From positions 434,001 to 498,000 of the forward strand of contig NZ_CP132334.1 of NCBI RefSeq assembly GCF_030758415.1: 64,000 nucleotides of DNA, read 5' to 3'. This stretch comes from Parvularcula sp. IMCC14364 (lineage in GTDB: Bacteria > Pseudomonadota > Alphaproteobacteria > Caulobacterales > Parvularculaceae). This document shows, piece after piece, positions 42,785 to 58,582 of the stretch. Below the pieces are notes generated by a model, which worked only from the letters and a program-made list of their open reading frames with translations, was not told where the DNA came from and ran no database searches. The translations under genes and the position numbers were made by a program. The first letter of the stretch is position 1. Each line of letters starts with the position of its first letter.

Positions 42785-43501
42785 ATGTGCGCGGTGTTGT
42801 GCAGAATCAAGCTGCTTGTCCTGGCGGTGATTGTCGTGACCGGGTGTGAGGCTATACCGCCTGCGCCGAGATCATTGGAGGCTGCGCCTGTCACGCAGGC
42901 GCCGGTCCGCGCGATAGTAGCACCGGTTCAGACGACGCGCCCGCCCGCCGGCGACACACAAACAGCCGAGCTATCAGACTCTTGTGCCTGCGCAGTTCCT
43001 GCCGAGATGTTTGTGCCCTCCGCGATGCGGGTGCAGCCTGTGTTGAGCGCACAGCGCCAGGGTGTTCAGCCGGTATTTCGCAGCACGCCTGCCCGCGACA
43101 TCATGCCACGGCTTAATCTTGATCAGGCGATCCGCATGGTGAACGTATATCGCGGCGAGAACGGACTGGCACCGCTGTTCCTTGAGCGACGTCTGGTCAC
43201 AGCTGCGCGCAGCCATGCGCAGGACCTCGCACAGGTTGACCGTGTTTCCCACACCGGCAGCGATGGGTCGACATTGCAGACGCGCTTGCAACGTGCCGGG
43301 TACGACGCCCATGCCGCAGCGGAAAATATCAGTGGCGGTCAGCGCAGCTTTGAAGAAGCATTTCGCGCATGGCAGCAAAGTCCGGTACATCGCGAAAAAC
43401 TGCTGGCAGCAAAGGCACAGGATATTGGTATTGCCTATGTGTATGATCCCGCGTCAGAGTACCGTGTATTCTGGACCCTGATTATTGCCGAACGGTTTTA
43501 A
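42785..43501 (+). CDS. CAP-domain (SCP/PR-1-like) lipoprotein
   Basis: A 238-residue protein: lipoprotein signal ending Val-Thr-Gly-Cys, a Pro/Ala-rich linker of about 80 residues, then a CAP domain with Asn-x-x-Arg-x-Glu-Asn-Gly-Leu-Ala-Pro-Leu, Ala-Ala-Arg-Ser-His-Ala-Gln-Asp near 140, Val-Ser-His-Thr-Gly-Ser-Asp-Gly near 153, Ala-Glu-Asn-Ile-Ser-Gly-Gly near 180 and Trp-x-x-Ser-Pro-x-His near 197. Bacterial members are cell-envelope proteins of mostly unknown role. Gene ends two bases before the convergent gtrA-like gene. Confidence 0.9.
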   Translation: MCAVLCRIKLLVLAVIVVTGCEAIPPAPRSLEAAPVTQAPVRAIVAPVQTTRPPAGDTQTAELSDSCACAVPAEMFVPSAMRVQPVLSAQRQGVQPVFRSTPARDIMPRLNLDQAIRMVNVYRGENGLAPLFLERRLVTAARSHAQDLAQVDRVSHTGSDGSTLQTRLQRAGYDAHAAAENISGGQRSFEEAFRAWQQSPVHREKLLAAKAQDIGIAYVYDPASEYRVFWTLIIAERF

Positions 43502-43502
43502 C

Positions 43503-44081
43503 CTAGGCTGCCTTGAATACGATGAAGCGGTTCCAGCAATAGGTCAGAACAGCCGCAGTACCGGAACTTGCGATGAAGGCAATGGTTGTGGAGGTTGTGA
43601 GAGATGTATCGCCCACCAGATGTGGTGACAGCCAGGCCGGCATGATGCTGATAAACCACTGCCACAGGCCAATCAGGGCCTCACCGCCAACACTGGCCAC
43701 CGGGCCCTGGAGAAAAGTGAAAATCTGCCCTTGCGTCAGCCCGATCATCAAACCGGTATGCAATAACATGACGATAATATAGCCGGCGACCATCAGGGCA
43801 AACCCGTGAACGTGGCTGCGCCCGCCATCAAAGACGAAATAGTGATTGCCGAGATAAGAGATCAGCAGGCCGCCGCCGAAGCCCAGCAGGTTGGCTGCGG
43901 CCAGCGATGTGACAAGCCCCGTTTCCATCAGAACCATCAGGATGAGATAATGCACCAGTGTTGCCGCGATACCGACCATGGCAAAGGCGCCAAGTGATTT
44001 GGCCAGATCAGACAAATGGCGTTTCATGCCGTCAGTTGAGCCGGTTTCCAATGGTGTGGCAATGTCAGCTGTCGGTGTCAC
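43503..44081 (-). CDS. GtrA-family membrane protein
   Basis: A four-helix inner-membrane protein; GtrA relatives move polyprenyl-phosphate-linked sugars across the membrane. Features: Phe-Ala-Met-Val-Gly-Ile-Ala-Ala-Thr-Leu-Val-His-Tyr early, Asn-Leu-Leu-Gly-Phe-Gly-Gly-Gly-Leu-Leu-Ile-Ser-Tyr-Leu-x-Asn-His-Tyr-Phe-Val-Phe, and an ending Cys-Trp-Asn-Arg-Phe-Ile-Val-Phe. A GTG at 44081 with a GGAG site ten bases upstream is taken as start; ATG at 44027 is the alternative. It lies 34 bases after murD2, in the same direction, so may be co-transcribed. Confidence 0.82.
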   Translation of the reverse strand: MTPTADIATPLETGSTDGMKRHLSDLAKSLGAFAMVGIAATLVHYLILMVLMETGLVTSLAAANLLGFGGGLLISYLGNHYFVFDGGRSHVHGFALMVAGYIIVMLLHTGLMIGLTQGQIFTFLQGPVASVGGEALIGLWQWFISIMPAWLSPHLVGDTSLTTSTTIAFIASSGTAAVLTYCWNRFIVFKAA

Positions 44082-44115: not shown

Positions 44116-45462
44116 TTAACCTTGTGGGGCAAAAGATTGAAAAATCCTTGACCGCTCGAGGTAATTTGCATGTGGGCGAGCTGAGGGGGCAGCTGGTGAA
44201 AACAGGATGATATCTCCCTCGCGGGCCTTATGGCGCGCGCTTTCGATCATGCTCTCAAGGCTGTCGTGATGCGAAATCAATGTTGGCGCTGCGCCAGACT
44301 CAGCTGCTGCCTGTAAGGCAGAGGCCGTTTCGCTGAAGGCATAAAGCTGGATATTGGCGCGGGCCCGGCAATGTGCGATCAGGGCATCAAACTGCTGGCC
44401 CCGGTCTGCCCCGCCCAGCAGCAGGTGAATGGTCTGCCCCTGCCAGCGCGTGAGAGCAGAAAGTGTTGCCTCCGGCACTGTCGCCAGCGCGTCATCAACC
44501 CAGATGAGTCCATCAGTCGTTGGCAGGATAAACTGGCGGGACGGCAGACCGGGCCAGCCCGACAGATTCTTCTGCAAGGCAGCCGAGACCTGATCCGGGG
44601 TCAGCAAACCACTGGCAAGGCAAGTGGCAATGCTGGCCCGCAGAGCAAGCAACATCGACGGTGCGGCAAAGGCCGGGTGCAGATCAACTGGCGTCAACTC
44701 ATGTACGGTGCCGAATGTGATCCGGTTGCCGTCAATGCGGGTATGGTCGTCGAAGGTGGTGATCGCGCTGTTTGCCGGGACTTCCTGTCGTAAATCAGTA
44801 GCGACGATACCCCGCGCAGGCGGGTTTTGCGCGAAGGGGCGCAGCTTGTCATGCCTGTAGGCGCTGTGGCTGCCATGCCAGTCCGTATGTTCCTTATAGA
44901 TATTGGTGACGACATGAAAAGCGGAGAGGGGCGGGAGATCGTGCATCATGTAAGAGGAGAGCTCAAGCACGCAAATTGTATCCGTACTGATGACTGCTTC
45001 AAAAGGTGTACGCCCAATATTACCCATCTCCTCGGCCCTGCGCCCGGCCCAGCGCAATAAATGTGCCGTCAGGCTGGCGGTGGAACTCTTGCCCTTGGTC
45101 CCGGTGATGGTGATGGTGTTTTGCGGCGCATATTTGGCCAGCCAGTAGCCGGTGGGCGTGGTGTGCGGAATACGCAGATGTCTGATTTTTTCAAAAACAG
45201 GATTATCCGGCGCAATACCCGGCGAGCGTAGATAGAGCTCTGGCCGCGGGGTGTCATGATTTTCCGACACCCACTCTGGCTCGGTCACATGGGTGACGGC
45301 TGTATTCTGCTGAAGGGATTCGGGCAGGGCAGAAAATTTATCTGCCCTGTCTATAACGGTAATGTGCTGTGCCTGCTGTGTGAGAAACCAGTCCAGCGCG
45401 GCGCGGCCTTCAACGCCGAGGCCGTGAATGATGAGTCTGGATGTGGCCGGATCAAAGATCAT
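44116..45462 (-). CDS. murD2: UDP-MurNAc-L-Ala--L-Glu ligase (MurD2-type Mur ligase)
   Basis: A 448-residue Mur ligase: N-terminal Gly-Leu-Gly-Val-Glu-Gly-Arg-Ala, P-loop Gly-Thr-Lys-Gly-Lys-Ser-Ser-Thr near 120-127, Glu-Leu-Ser-Ser-Tyr near 165, Asn-Ile-Tyr-Lys-Glu-His-Thr-Asp-Trp-His near 185-194. It resembles MurD but differs at many positions and is encoded next to murL, overlapping its end by 11 bases. In the known pair MurD2 adds L-Glu to UDP-MurNAc-L-Ala, and MurL then inverts it. The assignment to MurD2 rests largely on the gene pairing. Confidence 0.85.
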   Translation of the reverse strand: MIFDPATSRLIIHGLGVEGRAALDWFLTQQAQHITVIDRADKFSALPESLQQNTAVTHVTEPEWVSENHDTPRPELYLRSPGIAPDNPVFEKIRHLRIPHTTPTGYWLAKYAPQNTITITGTKGKSSTASLTAHLLRWAGRRAEEMGNIGRTPFEAVISTDTICVLELSSYMMHDLPPLSAFHVVTNIYKEHTDWHGSHSAYRHDKLRPFAQNPPARGIVATDLRQEVPANSAITTFDDHTRIDGNRITFGTVHELTPVDLHPAFAAPSMLLALRASIATCLASGLLTPDQVSAALQKNLSGWPGLPSRQFILPTTDGLIWVDDALATVPEATLSALTRWQGQTIHLLLGGADRGQQFDALIAHCRARANIQLYAFSETASALQAAAESGAAPTLISHHDSLESMIESARHKAREGDIILFSPAAPSARPHANYLERSRIFQSFAPQG

Positions 45463-46813
45463 GGGCTGCTTTCATCATCGTGTCCGGCACGAAATGTCTG
45501 TCCGCAACACCCATTCCGTCCTGCCAGAATGTCTCGAGCGTTGCCGTATCATGCAGCGCCAGGATCTGCGGGATGAGTGCACGCACGGCTCGCGTGGCGC
45601 GCCAGGGGGAGGACAGGCTCAGCCGATATACTGTAGCGCGACATTCATTGATGGTGCCAACGCAATCCCACGGTTTGCTGTCTGTCAGTCCACAGAGTTC
45701 CCGATAAAGCGGCAGCAGGTTTTCGCGCTCAAGGAAATTATCGGGAAAGATTGTTCGGGCCTGCTCAAGGCTCAGATGTGGCGCCAGCATCAGCGAGGTG
45801 AAAGCGCATTTCGCGCACGCACCGCACCAGCGTGGTGGTTCTGCGCCGGTAATACGGAAGTTTTGGTTGCAACTGGTGAAGCGCGGGAATGCTTCCTGCA
45901 GAGCCGAGAACTTTTCGGCAATCCAGATCTCCGAATAGGGGCGAAGGACGGAAAAATAGGCCGGCGCCAACGGATCGGCTGTCCCGATGGCATCGCGCAT
46001 GATATTCTCGAAGTTGCTGGATTTCGAATACTGATGATTTGCGACGATCCCGTCCTGCCGGATGGTTGGCTCATCGGCAGAGCGTTCATTTGCGAAAATC
46101 ACACTTTGCGCACCTGACAGGCGGCCGAGAATGACCAGCATCAGCGCGTTAATGGCAGTGATGGGAACGTGGCCGTTCAGGGCATCAGCGGCATTCACAT
46201 CGCGCAGTTTCGGGTCGAGATGTCGGCGCAGAAACAGCACTGGCATTTCGCTTGTGCGCTGGATCGCGGCCTCAACCTTGTCGGACATGACAACCGCACA
46301 GCGCTGCGCCGTCAGGCCCGCCCGCCGGGCGATTGCATCAGCAACATAAGAATCCTTGCCGCCGCCCCAGGCAACCAGTGCCTGTCCGTCAAGGCTGTGC
46401 GTCTGTGCCACCTGTTCGGGATAGGGGGCGCTGTCTTTGTCGCTGGCGACAATCTCAAGCTCATGGCTCTGATAGAGACCGTTACGCACATACAACTCAG
46501 CCAGACCATCGCCATAAAGGGCAGTTGCCAACTGGTGTAATTCTGATGAGATTCGCGTGAGGGGTAACAGCAGGCGGCGGGCGGCAGCGCATTTGTAATA
46601 ACTGACCCCCAGCGCAACCTGCAACAGGTCGAGGAGGCCAGCCAGTCCCCGGTCCAGGCGCGCTTCCAGGGCCAGATCCGTGGCCGTAAAAGTGACAATT
46701 TCCGAGAAGGCCCCGTAGCGCGCGCAGGTATAGTCAAAACGCACAGACGCCCCGTCAGCTGACACCTGCCATCCCTCCATCCTGAAACTGTCTGCCTGTC
46801 GCGGGTCCGCCAT
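45452..46813 (-). CDS. murL: UDP-MurNAc-L-Ala-L-Glu epimerase
   Basis: About 453 residues with an ATP-pyrophosphatase-like loop Gly-Gly-Gly-Lys-Asp-Ser near residue 155, then Ala-Asn-Glu-Arg-Ser-Ala-Asp-Glu-Pro-Thr near 246, His-Gln-Tyr-Ser-Lys-Ser near 265, and a Cys-Gly-Ala-Cys-x-Lys-Cys-Ala-Phe cluster near 335. These match MurL, which epimerises the terminal L-Glu of the peptidoglycan precursor to D-Glu with ATP. It overlaps the murD2 start, giving a translationally coupled pair. Start at 46813 preferred; ATG at 46834 has its ribosome site too close. Confidence 0.88.
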   Translation of the reverse strand: MADPRQADSFRMEGWQVSADGASVRFDYTCARYGAFSEIVTFTATDLALEARLDRGLAGLLDLLQVALGVSYYKCAAARRLLLPLTRISSELHQLATALYGDGLAELYVRNGLYQSHELEIVASDKDSAPYPEQVAQTHSLDGQALVAWGGGKDSYVADAIARRAGLTAQRCAVVMSDKVEAAIQRTSEMPVLFLRRHLDPKLRDVNAADALNGHVPITAINALMLVILGRLSGAQSVIFANERSADEPTIRQDGIVANHQYSKSSNFENIMRDAIGTADPLAPAYFSVLRPYSEIWIAEKFSALQEAFPRFTSCNQNFRITGAEPPRWCGACAKCAFTSLMLAPHLSLEQARTIFPDNFLERENLLPLYRELCGLTDSKPWDCVGTINECRATVYRLSLSSPWRATRAVRALIPQILALHDTATLETFWQDGMGVADRHFVPDTMMKAAHDL

Positions 46814-47275: not shown

Positions 47276-49727
47276 AAAATTAATATAAGATAATCCGTAT
47301 AGTATACATTAATTATTCAAACGATAATATCATCTAATATATCAATTAATGATGTGTTATTTATTGTCAGCGTATCGTTTCCTATAAGCAAAAACACATC
47401 ACCATTTTCCTCAACCATCGCAGCGATTGCATCATTGGCGTCAATGAAATCAAAATCAGTTAGATCAATTTTATCAGTACCATTTCGAAAGTCTATTATT
47501 GATACTTCCTCATCGCCAACGTTGAATACAAATGTATCGCTTCCGCCGTTACCAGAAAGTATATCAATGCCGCCCCCACCAGAGAGAATGTCATCGCCGC
47601 CACCGCCGGACAAAGTATCGTCACCGAGTCCACCGGAAACTTCATCATTGCCACTACCCCCAAAAATCTGATCGTTTCCAGAATTTCCATTGAGGATGTC
47701 GCTTCCCCCTCCACCACGAATAATGTCGTTGCCTGAATCCCCAGAGATTATATCAGTTAAACCATTACCAATGATTAGATCATTGCCGGCGCCCCCAAAA
47801 ATAGTGTCGCTGCCCCGCCGACCTTCTATCTGGTCGTTGCCATCACCACCCTGAATAAAATCACCTGAATCGCCGCCAATAAGAATGTCGTTTCCTATGC
47901 CGCCGTCCAATTGATCTCGCCCCCCACCCGCCGAAAGCGTATCATTACCTTCATTCCCGAAAAGCTTGTCTTTGCCTCCGTTCCCTTCGATCTTATCATC
48001 TTGAGTTCCGCCGAACAGGCTGTCAGCACCGGAGCCGCCGAATATAGTATCAGAGCCGTCACCTCCGAAAACCGTGTCTCGCCCGCTACCGGCTTCAATA
48101 TAATCCTGCCCAGCCATGCCATCTATAATATCATTTCCCGCAAGGCCTTGCAGTCTATTATCGGCGATATCACCTATCAATGTATCGTTAAAGTCTGACC
48201 CAGTGATGCCCTCAATGTTTTGAATAGTGTCACCTTCCGCGTCGCCACCGAAGGAAACACCTGTACTGAGGTCAATAGATATTCCGGCTGAAGAAGAATG
48301 GTAACTTGCAACATCGATATCCTCGCCACCATCTAATATGTCAGCGCCAGAACCACCAATGAGCAAGTCATTACCTCTCCCGCCAAGCAGTTCATCATCT
48401 CCAGCAAAACCAAATATTTCATCTCCAAGAAAAGATCCGTTTAAAACATCTTCGTCATCAGTGCCGTTTAGCCCTGTGGAGAAACCGAAAATTATATATG
48501 TTTGGCCGCTTACAGATGACTCATTACTAGGGCCTCCAGGTAGTCCGATTGCCACGTCGTCAAATCCATCGCCATTAATATCACCGGCAGAGGAAGCTTG
48601 CGTACCATTACTCACTGCGAAACCATTCGAGCCGTCAAGCTCGGATAGCTCGACGGTATCCGTAAAACCTCCATCACGACCAAACACAATATAAGTTTTT
48701 CCAAAGGAAATGAAATTACCATTTCTAGATGTAACTTCACTGTCTGTACTTAAGATGAAGTCTCCAACCCCATCTCCATTGAAATCTCCTGCAGAACCTA
48801 TCGCTGTAGTTCTTTCTCGTTCACCCACACCGTTAATTGCAAACCCCTGACTGTTGTCAAAATCGGATAGTTCCAGTCGATCTTGTGTGAAGTCATTTCT
48901 ACCATAAATTACATATGCTTCTCCGGAATCATATGCGTTCGCATCACCACCAGGCGCCCCCAAGAATATATCATTAATGCCGTCACCGTTAACATCACCA
49001 ATATTGCCAGATGCTGCCAATCTATCACCCGCATCTATACCTTCTATTGTGAAGCCATTCGAGCCGTTCAAGCTACTCACGTTCATTGCGGCAGGCTTGA
49101 TATTGTCATCACCAAAAATAATATACACTTCACCAACTGAATTTTTCCCTGAACTATTTGCATTTGCGGCACCGATTGCGAAATCATCAATTCCGTCGCC
49201 ATTAATATCGCCAAGTCCAGAGAGTGTGCTGCCGGAATAGTCTCTACCGCCTGTTCCTTGCACCACAAATCCGTTGAGACCGTTTAGATCTGATGTTTCT
49301 ATATTTTCACCGAAGCCCCCCGCGGAACCGAAAACAACATAAGTCTCTCCAGCGGAGAAGTTACCGTCCACAGTGGCTCGTATACTTGAAACCAGAAAAT
49401 CGTCGATGCCGTCAGCGTTAATATCACCTGCGGCGGCAGTGCTGAAGCCCAGCCGGTCACCTGTGGTCAAGCCGCTTAAAGAAAAACCGTTAGTGCCATC
49501 AAGTGACGAGACAGAAAAGCTAGGCTCTGCCCCTTCAGTAGTGCCAAAAATGACGTATGCTTGACCGGAGTCAAAAGCTCCACCTGTATTTTTGTACGGC
49601 GCTGAAATGATAAAATCATCTATACCATCACCGTTGATGTCTCCGACAATATTAGCATCAAAACCAAGATTATCACCATCTGAGCTATCTTGGATGGGTT
49701 CAATTGAAAAGCCGTCCGAGCCATCTA

Positions 49728-50569
49728 GGCTCAGGACTCATTGATTGATCCAGAAGATCATCGTAGCTGCGATGCAGATGCTTGAGAAGTATGTGTGAGC
49801 ACAGCGGTCATAGCGGGTGGCGACGCGCCGCCAGTCTTTTAGCCTTCCGAACATGATCTCGACTTTGTGGCGTTGTTTATAGAGAGTTTCGCAAAACTCC
49901 GCTGGATGACGCCGTCCTTTTCGCGGTGGGATGCAGGGCTGAATGTTTTTAGCGGTGAGAGCACTGCGAAACTCATCGCTATCGTAACCCTTGTCGCCGA
50001 TCAGGGTTTTCGCGCCCTCCGGCAGTGCCGGATAGATCAGCTTTGCGCCGATATGATCGCTTGTCTGTCCAGCCGTCAGGCACATGATCAGCGGGCGTCC
50101 CATGTTATCGACAACGGCGTGAAGTTTTGAGTTCAAGCCGCCTTTTGTGCGTCCAATGTGCCTGGGAAAAGCCCCTTTTTTAAAAGGCTGGACGCGGTGC
50201 GATGGGCTTTCAAATGCGTGGCGTCAATCATCAGCGTTTCGGAAACGTCCCCTTGCGCAGACAGGTTCGAAAAGATGCGATCAAAAACGCCCAAGCGGCT
50301 CCAGCGGATAAAGCGATTGTATAAAGTCTTGTGCGGACCATATTCCTTCGGCGCATCACGCCAGCGCAAACCGTTGCGGATCACGAAGATGATCCCGGAC
50401 AATACACGCCTGTCGTCAACGCGCGGAACACCATGGGATAAAGGAAAATACGGCTCAATCCGTGACAACTGCTCTTTCGATAACCAAATCAAATCGCTCA
50501 TTGCAAAGCCTCCTTTGCAATCTTGAATCACCGTTCGTATCAGATCACAAGATTAATAGGTCCTGAGCC
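49728..50569 (-). mobile_element. IS5-family element B, copy 2 (842 bp)
   Basis: Same ends and length as the copy at 21790-22631, opposite orientation, with TA at 49726-49727 and 50570-50571. It interrupts the FG-GAP/RTX gene near codon 80. Confidence 0.93.
49738..50501 (-). CDS. IS5-family transposase (element B copy 2), two frames joined by -1 shift
   Basis: Identical in both translated frames to the transposase at 21858-22621, with the same A-AAA-AAG slip site between its halves (minus strand, near 50175-50181). Both halves look complete. Confidence 0.92.
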
Positions 50570-55265: not shown

Positions 55266-55381
55266 AGTGGGGTCCTTCTTCTGTGCAGGCTACTTACGGT
55301 GCCATGGCGGAAAGAAAAAGAAACGAATCTTCATTTAAGAGCCGCCCGAAAGCCGTTTAAGGGCAGAAGCGTGGACGCGTG

Positions 55382-56734
55382 ATGAGTAAGACAGTCAAAA
55401 CAGCTATTGTTATTCTGGCAGCGGGACACGGGACGCGCATGAAGTCGACCCTGCCCAAGGTGCTGCACCTTGTGGGCGGACTGCCCATGTTGGGCCATGT
55501 CGTGCGCGTGGCAGGCGCCCTGTCTGCAGAGCGCCTGTGTGTTGTGATCGGTGACCATGCCCCTGAAGTGGGTGAGTCAGCACGCGGCTTTGCGCCGGAA
55601 GCGGAAGTTTTTGTGCAGGCCCCGCCACGTGGCACCGGCGATGCCGTTACGTGCGCCATGCCGGGGCTTGATGGTTTTGAGGGGGTTGTGTTTGTTCTGT
55701 ATGCAGATACGCCCCTGATCCGGCCTGAAACCTTGCAGGAGATGGCGCGACTTGTTGAAGACGGGGCCGGTGTTGTCGTGCTCGGGTTCCGGCCGGAAGA
55801 CCCGAAACTTTACGGCCGCCTCATCACCACTGATGGGAATGCGCTGGAGCGCATTGTCGAGGCGCGTGATGCGAGCCCGGAGGAGCTTTCCGTCACCTTG
55901 TGCAATTCCGGTGTCATGGCCATGCGGGCCGGGGTGCTGGCCAGTCATTTGTCGAAGATCACCAATGATAATGCCAAAGGGGAATATTATCTGACGGACA
56001 TTGTGGAGCTTGCCCGCCGGGCAGGTGAGGGTGCGCGTGTCGTCGAATGTGATGAAGCAGAGGTGATGGGCGTCGATTCGCGCCTCGGGTTGTCCGAAGC
56101 TGAGGCTGTATTCCAGAGCCGCCGCCGTGAAGAGGCCATGCTTGCTGGCGTGACACTATATGATCCGCAGACAGTATATTTCTCACATGATACGATGCTG
56201 GCGCAGGACGTTCGGGTCGGCCAGAATGTCGTCTTTGGTCCGGGCGTAAGGGTTGAGAGCGGCGCAGAAATAAAGGCATTTTCTCATCTGGAAGGTGTCA
56301 CCGTCAAAGCGCAGGCTGCCATTGGTCCATTCGCGCGCCTGCGCCCTGGCACTGTGGTGGGGGAGAAGGCCAAGATCGGCAATTTTGTCGAGACGAAAAA
56401 AGCGATCCTTGATGAAGGCGCAAAAGTCAGCCATCTGAGTTATATTGGCGATGCGCAAATAGGCGCCCACGCGAATATCGGTGCCGGAACGATCACCTGC
56501 AATTATGACGGGTTCCGCAAGTATCAAACTGTCATTGGAGAAGGAGCTTTTGTCGGCTCCAATTCTTCGCTGGTTGCGCCCGTGACGATTGGCGCGGGCG
56601 CTTATGTCGGCTCCGGTTCTGTCGTGACGAAAGATGTTGAGATAGATGCACTGGCTGTCGCGCGCGGGCGGCAGATGCAGAAAGCTGGCTGGGCTCTCAG
56701 TTTTCGCCAGAAAATGACGTCTAAAGAGAATTAG
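55382..56734 (+). CDS. glmU: Bifunctional GlcNAc-1-P uridyltransferase / GlcN-1-P acetyltransferase
   Basis: 450 residues. The N-terminal pyrophosphorylase has Ala-Ala-Gly-x-Gly-Thr-Arg-Met-Lys-Ser near 13-22 and Gly-Thr-Gly-Asp-Ala-Val near 83; the C-terminal half is a left-handed beta-helix with repeated Ile-Gly-x-x-Ala hexapeptides, Asn-Phe-Val-Glu-Thr-Lys-Lys near 336, and Thr-Ile-Thr-Cys-Asn-Tyr-Asp-Gly near 367. It makes UDP-GlcNAc for peptidoglycan and lipopolysaccharide. Followed 21 bases later by glmS, forming a short pathway operon. An in-frame GTG lies directly before the ATG. Confidence 0.96.
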   Translation: MSKTVKTAIVILAAGHGTRMKSTLPKVLHLVGGLPMLGHVVRVAGALSAERLCVVIGDHAPEVGESARGFAPEAEVFVQAPPRGTGDAVTCAMPGLDGFEGVVFVLYADTPLIRPETLQEMARLVEDGAGVVVLGFRPEDPKLYGRLITTDGNALERIVEARDASPEELSVTLCNSGVMAMRAGVLASHLSKITNDNAKGEYYLTDIVELARRAGEGARVVECDEAEVMGVDSRLGLSEAEAVFQSRRREEAMLAGVTLYDPQTVYFSHDTMLAQDVRVGQNVVFGPGVRVESGAEIKAFSHLEGVTVKAQAAIGPFARLRPGTVVGEKAKIGNFVETKKAILDEGAKVSHLSYIGDAQIGAHANIGAGTITCNYDGFRKYQTVIGEGAFVGSNSSLVAPVTIGAGAYVGSGSVVTKDVEIDALAVARGRQMQKAGWALSFRQKMTSKEN

Positions 56735-56755: not shown

Positions 56756-58582
56756 ATGTGTGGGATCATCGGTGTTATCGGCAAGTCGGAAGTTGCGGGC
56801 TCAATTCTTGAAGGGCTCACGCGCCTAGAATATCGCGGGTATGATTCGGCCGGTATCGCCACATTTCTGGATGGTCGCATCGAGCGCCGTCGTGCCGTAG
56901 GCAAACTTTCTGCCCTGCGGGATGTGCTGGCGGGCCAACCTCTGGGCGGGCTCGTCGGGATAGGTCATACCCGCTGGGCAACACATGGTGCACCCACGGT
57001 GACCAATGCTCATCCCCACGCGACGCCAGAGGTCGCTGTCGTCCATAATGGCATCATTGAGAATTTCGCAGACTTGCGTGATGAATTGACCAAGGTGGGA
57101 CAGGTTTTTGAAACCGAGACAGACACTGAGACAATCGCGCATCTTGTCAGTCATTATCTTGCCAAAGGACGCCCGCCCGAAGAAGCCTTCGTTGAGGCGG
57201 TCAACCGTCTCGAAGGCGCCTTTGCGATTGCGGTGCTGATTCGTGATCATCCGGGCAAGGTCTATATTGCCCGGATGGGCAGCCCACTGGCAGTTGGGCG
57301 CGGTGACGGAGAGATGTTTCTGGGCTCTGATGCTTACGCACTGGCACCCTTCACCAACCTTGTCACCTACCTTCAGGACGGGGATCGTGGCGTTATGTGG
57401 CAGGATGGTTTTGAACTGACGGACGCACAAGGCACACCGGTTCAGCGCACGGAACAGATTTCCGATGCTGCTGCCGCCATGGTGGACAAGGGCGGGCACC
57501 GACATTTCATGGCCAAGGAAATCCATGAGCAGCCGGAAGTCGTTGGCCATACCCTGTCCGCCTATGTCGATCCGGTGCGCCGGGAAATTCGTATGCCTGA
57601 AGGGTTGGACTTTTCTGCCGTATCAAGGCTGACCATATCTGCCTGCGGTACGGCCTATTACTCTGGCCTGATTGCAAAATACTGGTTTGAACAGTGGGCG
57701 AACCTTTCTGTTGAAATAGATATTGCCTCAGAGTTGCGCTACCGGCATGTGCCGTATCCTGAAAAAGGCATGGCGCTCTATATCTCCCAGTCTGGTGAAA
57801 CAGCAGATACGCTGGCGGCTTTGCGTGATGCGAAAGGTGCCGGCCAGACCATTGCAGCACTCGTAAACGTGCCTGAGTCCACTATCGCGCGTGAGGCGGA
57901 TATTTGTCTGCCGACCCATGCAGGCCCTGAGATCGGCGTTGCCTCCACGAAGGCGTTCACCTGTCAGCTGGCGGCGCTGGCGGCGATTGCCATCGGCGCC
58001 GGGCGACAGCGCGGTGTTCTGGATGCAGCGAGGGAAGGCGCTCTGGTGGACGCCTTGCTGGAAACGCCGCGCCATATTTCCGAGGCGCTGGCCCGCGCGG
58101 GCGAGGTGGAGCAACTGTGTAATGACCTCTCGCGGGCACGCGATGTCCTGTATCTCGGCCGCGGTGTCAGTTTCCCGCTGGCGATGGAAGGTGCCCTGAA
58201 GCTGAAGGAAATCTCCTATATCCATGCCGAAGGGTATGCCGCAGGGGAGCTGAAACACGGTCCCATTGCCCTGATTGATGAAAATGTGCCGGTCATTGTC
58301 GTGGCACCAAAAGACGCGCTGTTTGAAAAGACCATCTCCAACATGCAGGAAGTAATGGCCCGTGGCGGCAAGTGTCTGCTGATTTCGTCAAGCGATGGGA
58401 TCGCTGAAGCCGTGCGTGGCGGCACACTTTGGGGTCAGGTGCAGGCGCCTGTCATGGAACCATTGCTGACGCCTATCGTCTATGCAGTGCCGGTGCAGTT
58501 GCTGGCATATTATACCGCCGTGGCAAAAGGCACAGATGTTGATCAGCCGCGTAATCTCGCAAAGTCAGTGACAGTTGAATAA
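56756..58582 (+). CDS. glmS: Glutamine--fructose-6-phosphate aminotransferase
   Basis: The 608-residue enzyme makes glucosamine 6-phosphate. Cys-2 in Met-Cys-Gly-Ile-Ile-Gly is the amidotransferase nucleophile; Gly-His-Thr-Arg-Trp-Ala-Thr-His-Gly near 72 and Arg-Met-Gly-Ser-Pro-Leu near 170 follow, and two SIS domains contain Ala-Cys-Gly-Thr-Ala-Tyr-Tyr near 296, Ser-Gln-Ser-Gly-Glu-Thr-Ala-Asp-Thr near 345 and Leu-Gly-Arg-Gly near 467. The last residues, Asn-Leu-Ala-Lys-Ser-Val-Thr-Val-Glu, are the family C-tail. Together with glmU it feeds UDP-GlcNAc. Confidence 0.97.
   Translation: MCGIIGVIGKSEVAGSILEGLTRLEYRGYDSAGIATFLDGRIERRRAVGKLSALRDVLAGQPLGGLVGIGHTRWATHGAPTVTNAHPHATPEVAVVHNGIIENFADLRDELTKVGQVFETETDTETIAHLVSHYLAKGRPPEEAFVEAVNRLEGAFAIAVLIRDHPGKVYIARMGSPLAVGRGDGEMFLGSDAYALAPFTNLVTYLQDGDRGVMWQDGFELTDAQGTPVQRTEQISDAAAAMVDKGGHRHFMAKEIHEQPEVVGHTLSAYVDPVRREIRMPEGLDFSAVSRLTISACGTAYYSGLIAKYWFEQWANLSVEIDIASELRYRHVPYPEKGMALYISQSGETADTLAALRDAKGAGQTIAALVNVPESTIAREADICLPTHAGPEIGVASTKAFTCQLAALAAIAIGAGRQRGVLDAAREGALVDALLETPRHISEALARAGEVEQLCNDLSRARDVLYLGRGVSFPLAMEGALKLKEISYIHAEGYAAGELKHGPIALIDENVPVIVVAPKDALFEKTISNMQEVMARGGKCLLISSSDGIAEAVRGGTLWGQVQAPVMEPLLTPIVYAVPVQLLAYYTAVAKGTDVDQPRNLAKSVTVE

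Follow-up and report, generated by a model that had tools for sequence, protein, structure and literature searches.

A MurD2-MurL gene pair as the probable sole route to peptidoglycan D-glutamate in Parvularcula sp. IMCC14364, and a predicted PP-loop fold for MurL

How does Parvularcula sp. IMCC14364 obtain the D-glutamate of its peptidoglycan? The question is raised by two reverse-strand genes in the window, that is, the whole 64,000-nt stretch of DNA analysed here (positions 434,001 to 498,000 of contig NZ_CP132334.1). An earlier note, made from the letters alone, had described them as overlapping genes for a divergent Mur ligase and a MurL protein, and this description was borne out. The two open reading frames, both full length, overlap by 11 bp; the ligase scores 232 bits against the MurD model TIGR01087 (cut-off 212) and contains Mur ligase domains according to Pfam, and its partner aligns with 447 positions of NCBIfam NF041275, a whole-length match at E=1.8e-88 and 297 bits. 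A Pfam search of MurL matched no domain.

44116-45462, reverse strand: murD2 homologue, 448 aa
45452-46834, reverse strand: murL homologue, 460 aa; an in-frame ATG at 46813, seven codons inside the longest ORF, is an alternative start
46349-46366, reverse strand: PP-loop GGGKDS, MurL residues 157-162, invariant in the alignment and matched by profile to the PP-loop of TtuA
46019-46039, reverse strand: NHQYSKS motif, MurL residues 266-272, invariant bar the aromatic residue
45806-45871, reverse strand: C322-x14-C337-x2-C340-x2-C343, four invariant cysteines forming a presumed metal site (compare the QueC zinc motif)

NF041275 (the MurL_Xanthmoales equivalog) is a Xanthomonadales-specific model with a curated cut-off of 700 bits, which was reached neither by the window MurL nor in any of 385 Alphaproteobacteria genomes, so that the protein is not filed in that subfamily. 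We drew MurL and MurD2 homologues from these 385 genomes of the class and from 100 genomes of the order. Most other alphaproteobacterial MurLs share 28-31% identity with the window protein, and the best value within its own genus is 58%. Nonetheless, the three signatures that had been noted, namely the MurL loop, His-Gln-Tyr-Ser-Lys and Cys-x2-Cys-x2-Cys, are all present and conserved throughout a 23-row alignment: G157-S162 (GGGKDS), C322, C337, C340, C343, C391 and further residues are invariant, as is the stretch from N266 to S272 except for the aromatic position in HQ[YWF]SK. In the MurL tree, whose root is arbitrary, the window protein groups with its own genus (support 98), and with Parvularculaceae, Oceanicaulis and genome G414 (support 100). 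MurD2 adjoins MurL in all alphaproteobacterial loci long enough to show a neighbour, bar an orphan in L024; three MurL contigs of the class search were too short to reveal the adjacent gene. At L128:5113-6552 (forward strand), near recR and fmt-like genes, lies an orphan gene for a MurL-like protein; it has no MurD2 neighbour, and its product contains GGGKDS, the Cys motif and HQWGKS.

We then examined the ligase at the positions that discriminate between glutamate enantiomers.

45085-45105, reverse strand: Walker A TGTKGKS, MurD2 residues 120-126
44887-44892, reverse strand: MurD2 E191-H192, equivalent to E. coli D182-H183; E191 corresponds to X. oryzae E197
44485-44487, reverse strand: MurD2 L326, replacing the catalytic-site Lys319 of E. 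coli MurD
44401-44403, reverse strand: MurD2 R354, equivalent to X. oryzae R358 and E. coli K348, invariant in the MurD2 alignment

Like canonical MurD (E. coli 2jff, Streptococcus 3lk7), MurD2 has the Mur ligase fold, the Walker A Lys, N138, E157, H183 and K198, whereas E, R and L stand in place of D182, K348 and K319, and the gene lies outside the dcw cluster. Across 21 MurD2 proteins, R354 is invariant and the residues for Mur ligase catalysis are retained; all 21 have I or L at E. coli position 319 (K in canonical MurD), and the Glu at window position 191 is replaced by D in four of them. The residues by which MurD2 is recognised, E197 and R358 in X. oryzae numbering, are thus present as E191 and R354. 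The double change E197D/R358K leads X. oryzae MurD2 to use D-Glu, and K319T makes E. coli MurD accept L-Glu (PMC8788868). Since E191, R354 and L326 correspond to these mutagenised specificity positions, the window MurD2 is predicted to be L-Glu specific.

The MurD2-MurL pair of X. oryzae (XOO_1320/XOO_1319) and its orthologues in Micromonospora, Salinispora, Devosia and Parvularcula share with the window the gene pair, the MurL motifs, the L-Glu-type MurD2 residues and the lack of MurI (PMC8788868). Because Parvularcula had already been named as a MurD2/MurL carrier (PMC8788868), the window pair adds one more member to an established system. It differs from these systems in a much diverged MurL, under the Xanthomonadales cut-off, in the location of the pair beside glmU-glmS, and in the complete deletion of the dcw murD. 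The Xanthomonas, Micromonospora and Salinispora homologues are active in vitro, where L-Glu ligation, its inversion and the conversion of ATP to AMP have been established (PMC8788868, PMC5808125). By analogy, the window pair would have both activities: MurD2 would first attach ordinary L-glutamate, and MurL would afterwards flip it in one direction at the expense of ATP, releasing AMP and passing the product to MurE and MurF. MurD2 and MurL are considered narrow-spectrum antibiotic targets. What is new here is the MurL fold and the decayed dcw MurD described below, neither of which was found in the literature searched.

The earlier note had suggested looking for murI and a canonical murD in the full genome, and neither is there. 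The host genome (family Parvularculaceae) is complete, in one contig of 3,417,277 bases, and yielded no match to the glutamate racemase model TIGR00067, which was positive in 10 of 14 control genomes. Its only MurD-type ligase is the window MurD2. Indeed, the dcw cluster reads ftsI-murE-murF-mraY-ftsW-murG-murC-murB-ddl-ftsQ-ftsA and is devoid of murD, leaving just 166 bp between mraY and ftsW, the usual place of the gene. A search for a D-amino-acid transaminase (Dat) gave no strong match in this genome either, the best one (154 bits) being closer to other transaminases. Together with the L-Glu-type residues E191, R354 and L326, these absences support the proposal of sole use made in that note, and we regard it as very probable, as judged from sequence, that the pair is a MurD2-MurL module providing the only D-Glu route in the peptidoglycan of this cell.

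The distribution of D-Glu routes in related bacteria fits this reading. Across 100 genomes of the order, full-length MurI was found in 65, MurL in nine and neither in 26. All 26 of the latter (e.g., G474, G449 and G425) encode a strong Dat (228-290 bits) alongside canonical MurD, which is a third route to D-Glu; the idea that they might conceal a divergent MurL was consequently discarded as unnecessary. The nine MurL genomes, on the other hand, yielded no Dat match above 155 bits. MurI and MurL never occur in the same genome of the order (Fisher p=4e-5 over the 100 genomes), and in the class their non-overlap has p=0.002 for the 16 genomes with MurD2-paired MurL, both values being indicative only because the genomes are related. 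Dat and MurI can co-occur, since both of the MurI genomes in which Dat was sought (2 of 65) have a good match. Close relatives within one family thus cleanly show routes to an essential D-amino acid replacing one another.

MurL has been described as a protein without known domains that forms AMP (PMC5808125), and a PDB sequence search returned no MurL structure. We turned to its predicted fold. The AF2 model of the window protein (pLDDT 90.8, pTM 0.92) resembles QatC most closely (Foldseek E=4.7e-6; VIA Z=17.2 over 329 residues that span the N-terminal part and the core), followed by QueC (Z=13.8) and Cap9 (Z=12.9), with other PP-loop enzymes below Z=10. At the sequence level, a search with the MurL profile picked up TtuA (3vrh/5mko) through its PP-loop (E=0.0012). 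MurL is therefore predicted to be a PP-loop protein with a fold like that of QueC/QatC. It is not assigned to the QueC family, PF06508, to which none of 23 MurL members had a match at E<=0.1. QatC (9y01/9y02), QueC (2pg3, 3bl5) and Cap9 (9nto) share with the model the PP-loop fold, extending to the N-terminal region in QatC, and a Cys-rich site downstream; QueC and Cap9 use ATP to activate a carboxylate. The window protein departs from all three in having no detectable full-length sequence similarity to them, in its substrate (a UDP-MurNAc-dipeptide, not a deazaguanine) and in its outcome (epimerisation, not amide formation). Its motifs, GGGKDS and C(x)14CxxCxxC, also deviate from the strict QueC signatures SGGxDS and C(x)8CxxCxxC, the latter being the QueC zinc motif (PMC13329287), although they occur in the same order. 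Two 2026 papers on the QueC family make no mention of MurL.

A PP-loop ATP pyrophosphatase fold would account for the conversion of ATP to AMP and suggests that the alpha-carboxylate is adenylated before epimerisation. That MurL adenylates the alpha-carboxylate of Glu had already been proposed from the AMP product (PMC8788868), and the model would lend this proposal a structural basis. We envisage MurL acting as a QueC/QatC-type PP-loop ATP pyrophosphatase, with the GGGKDS loop binding the ATP phosphates while the terminal alpha-carboxylate of Glu becomes adenylated. Once its carboxylate is activated, an N-acyl amino acid tends to form an oxazolone and to lose its alpha-proton, as is well known from peptide chemistry. 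The activated Glu may thus lose its alpha-proton, either directly or via a 5(4H)-oxazolone in which the Ala carbonyl takes part, to be reprotonated on the opposite face and then hydrolysed; hydrolysis would drive the inversion one way, and this direction would be maintained by the inability of MurL to adenylate the D product. In this manner, the fold prediction provides a concrete and testable mechanism for MurL.

The same pathway could nonetheless operate with a MurL that spends ATP otherwise, its likeness to PP-loop enzymes reflecting a shared fold and not QueC-like carboxylate adenylation. The core is indeed common to many PP-loop enzymes, hhalign of MurL against QueC aligned the PP-loop only (22 columns, probability 5.7%), and MurL was matched by no QueC or QatC model in PADLOC or Pfam. 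However, the QatC match covers the N-terminal part as well as the core, with a clear gap down to the next families, the four cysteines follow a QueC-like order, and AMP is the product in a homologue (PMC5808125), all of which render this alternative improbable, although it is the most serious of those considered here. Far less likely is that free D-Glu arises from a YgeA-like Asp/Glu racemase or a Dat/IlvE-like transaminase and is ligated by the divergent MurD, leaving MurL with some other job. The racemase candidate, L039 (G000:C1:245969-246616, 231 aa), passes TIGR00035 with 128 bits against a threshold of 93, but its first catalytic Cys motif is altered (TSGTTH) and its score falls under the PRK10200 cut-off; the PF01177 match, considered as a hidden MurI, was rejected as just such a YgeA-like amino-acid racemase lacking that motif. 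The transaminase candidate, L036, matches PRK06680 and TIGR01121 weakly yet scores best with a branched-chain aminotransferase model, far under the Dat scores of the sister genera, and was dismissed as Dat because it lies nearer to IlvE and further transaminases of fold IV. Moreover, the MurL-bearing Parvularcula genomes lack any TIGR00067 match whatever, and the ligase carries L-Glu-type residues.

Least credible of all is that the pair serves another D-Glu glycoconjugate, tied to GtrA and lipid-carried sugars, instead of the main peptidoglycan, a reading to which the gene neighbourhood speaks directly.

43503-44027, reverse strand: GtrA-family gene (PF04138), likely start at 44027, longest ORF to 44171; a non-conserved neighbour
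55379-56734, forward strand: glmU, for UDP-GlcNAc synthesis (NF010933, 659 bits); a conserved neighbour
56756-58582, forward strand: glmS (TIGR01135, 764 bits); a conserved, syntenic neighbour

A GtrA-family gene does follow the pair in the same direction, as had been noted, but the link with lipid-carried sugars that it was taken to hint at does not hold: such a gene lies downstream in only three of nine Parvularculaceae neighbourhoods, the window included, and GtrA was accordingly rejected as a functional partner. In contrast, glmU-glmS are the constant neighbours, with glmU syntenic beside murL in 8/9 neighbourhoods, and the genome holds no other MurD or D-Glu source. Supply of the UDP-MurNAc precursor fits this context better. 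In Parvularculaceae MurL loci, the pair has as neighbours glmU, glmS and a gene for a HAD phosphatase, and most of these loci also include an XRE/S24 regulator gene. Between murL and that regulator, the window has otsBA, a split transposase and a gene for an RTX/FG-GAP protein. This last gene (47317-49470, reverse strand) is an insertion that parts murL from its customary neighbour; its 717-aa product carries FG-GAP repeats and calcium-binding RTX repeats. The transposase (49738-50531, reverse strand) is arranged in two overlapping frames, like insertion sequences with programmed frameshift. On the other side, 42785-43501 (forward strand) encodes a CAP-domain protein that scores 88 of 200 bits for similarity to DalA, a divisome-associated lipoprotein; in relatives it is often found beside murD2. 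A scan for promoters and terminators returned no more than expected by chance.

With MurD2-MurL as the probable D-Glu route, what became of the inherited dcw MurD? In all eight MurL relatives examined (seven Parvularculaceae and one from another family; L169-L176), the mraY-ftsW slot still holds a MurD-related open frame of ~440-470 aa, which has lost N138, H183, K198, K319 and S415. On a long branch, these derivatives group with their family's canonical dcw MurDs and apart from MurD2; the G414 row has a very long branch and its placement is unsure. The seven Parvularculaceae copies have pN/pS values of 0.43-0.49, like those of murL and murD2, with synonymous sites near saturation. The derivative is thus a candidate pseudoenzyme. 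The simplest history would be that MurD2-MurL took over, that the inherited MurD lost catalysis under constraint, and that it was deleted in the present genome. We see roughly even chances for the full proposal that MurL is an unrecognised QueC/QatC-like PP-loop branch inverting a peptide stereocentre by carboxylate adenylation, and that its spread rendered the dcw MurD of Parvularculaceae non-catalytic yet constrained, in a new and perhaps structural role that later became dispensable here. A decayed yet retained dcw MurD suggests that a non-catalytic role is possible for Mur ligases. Decay of murD also appears in a second lineage, the MurL-carrying Rhodobacteraceae NBU2976 (G490), whose dcw murD (C1:1263418-1264419) contains an internal TAA.
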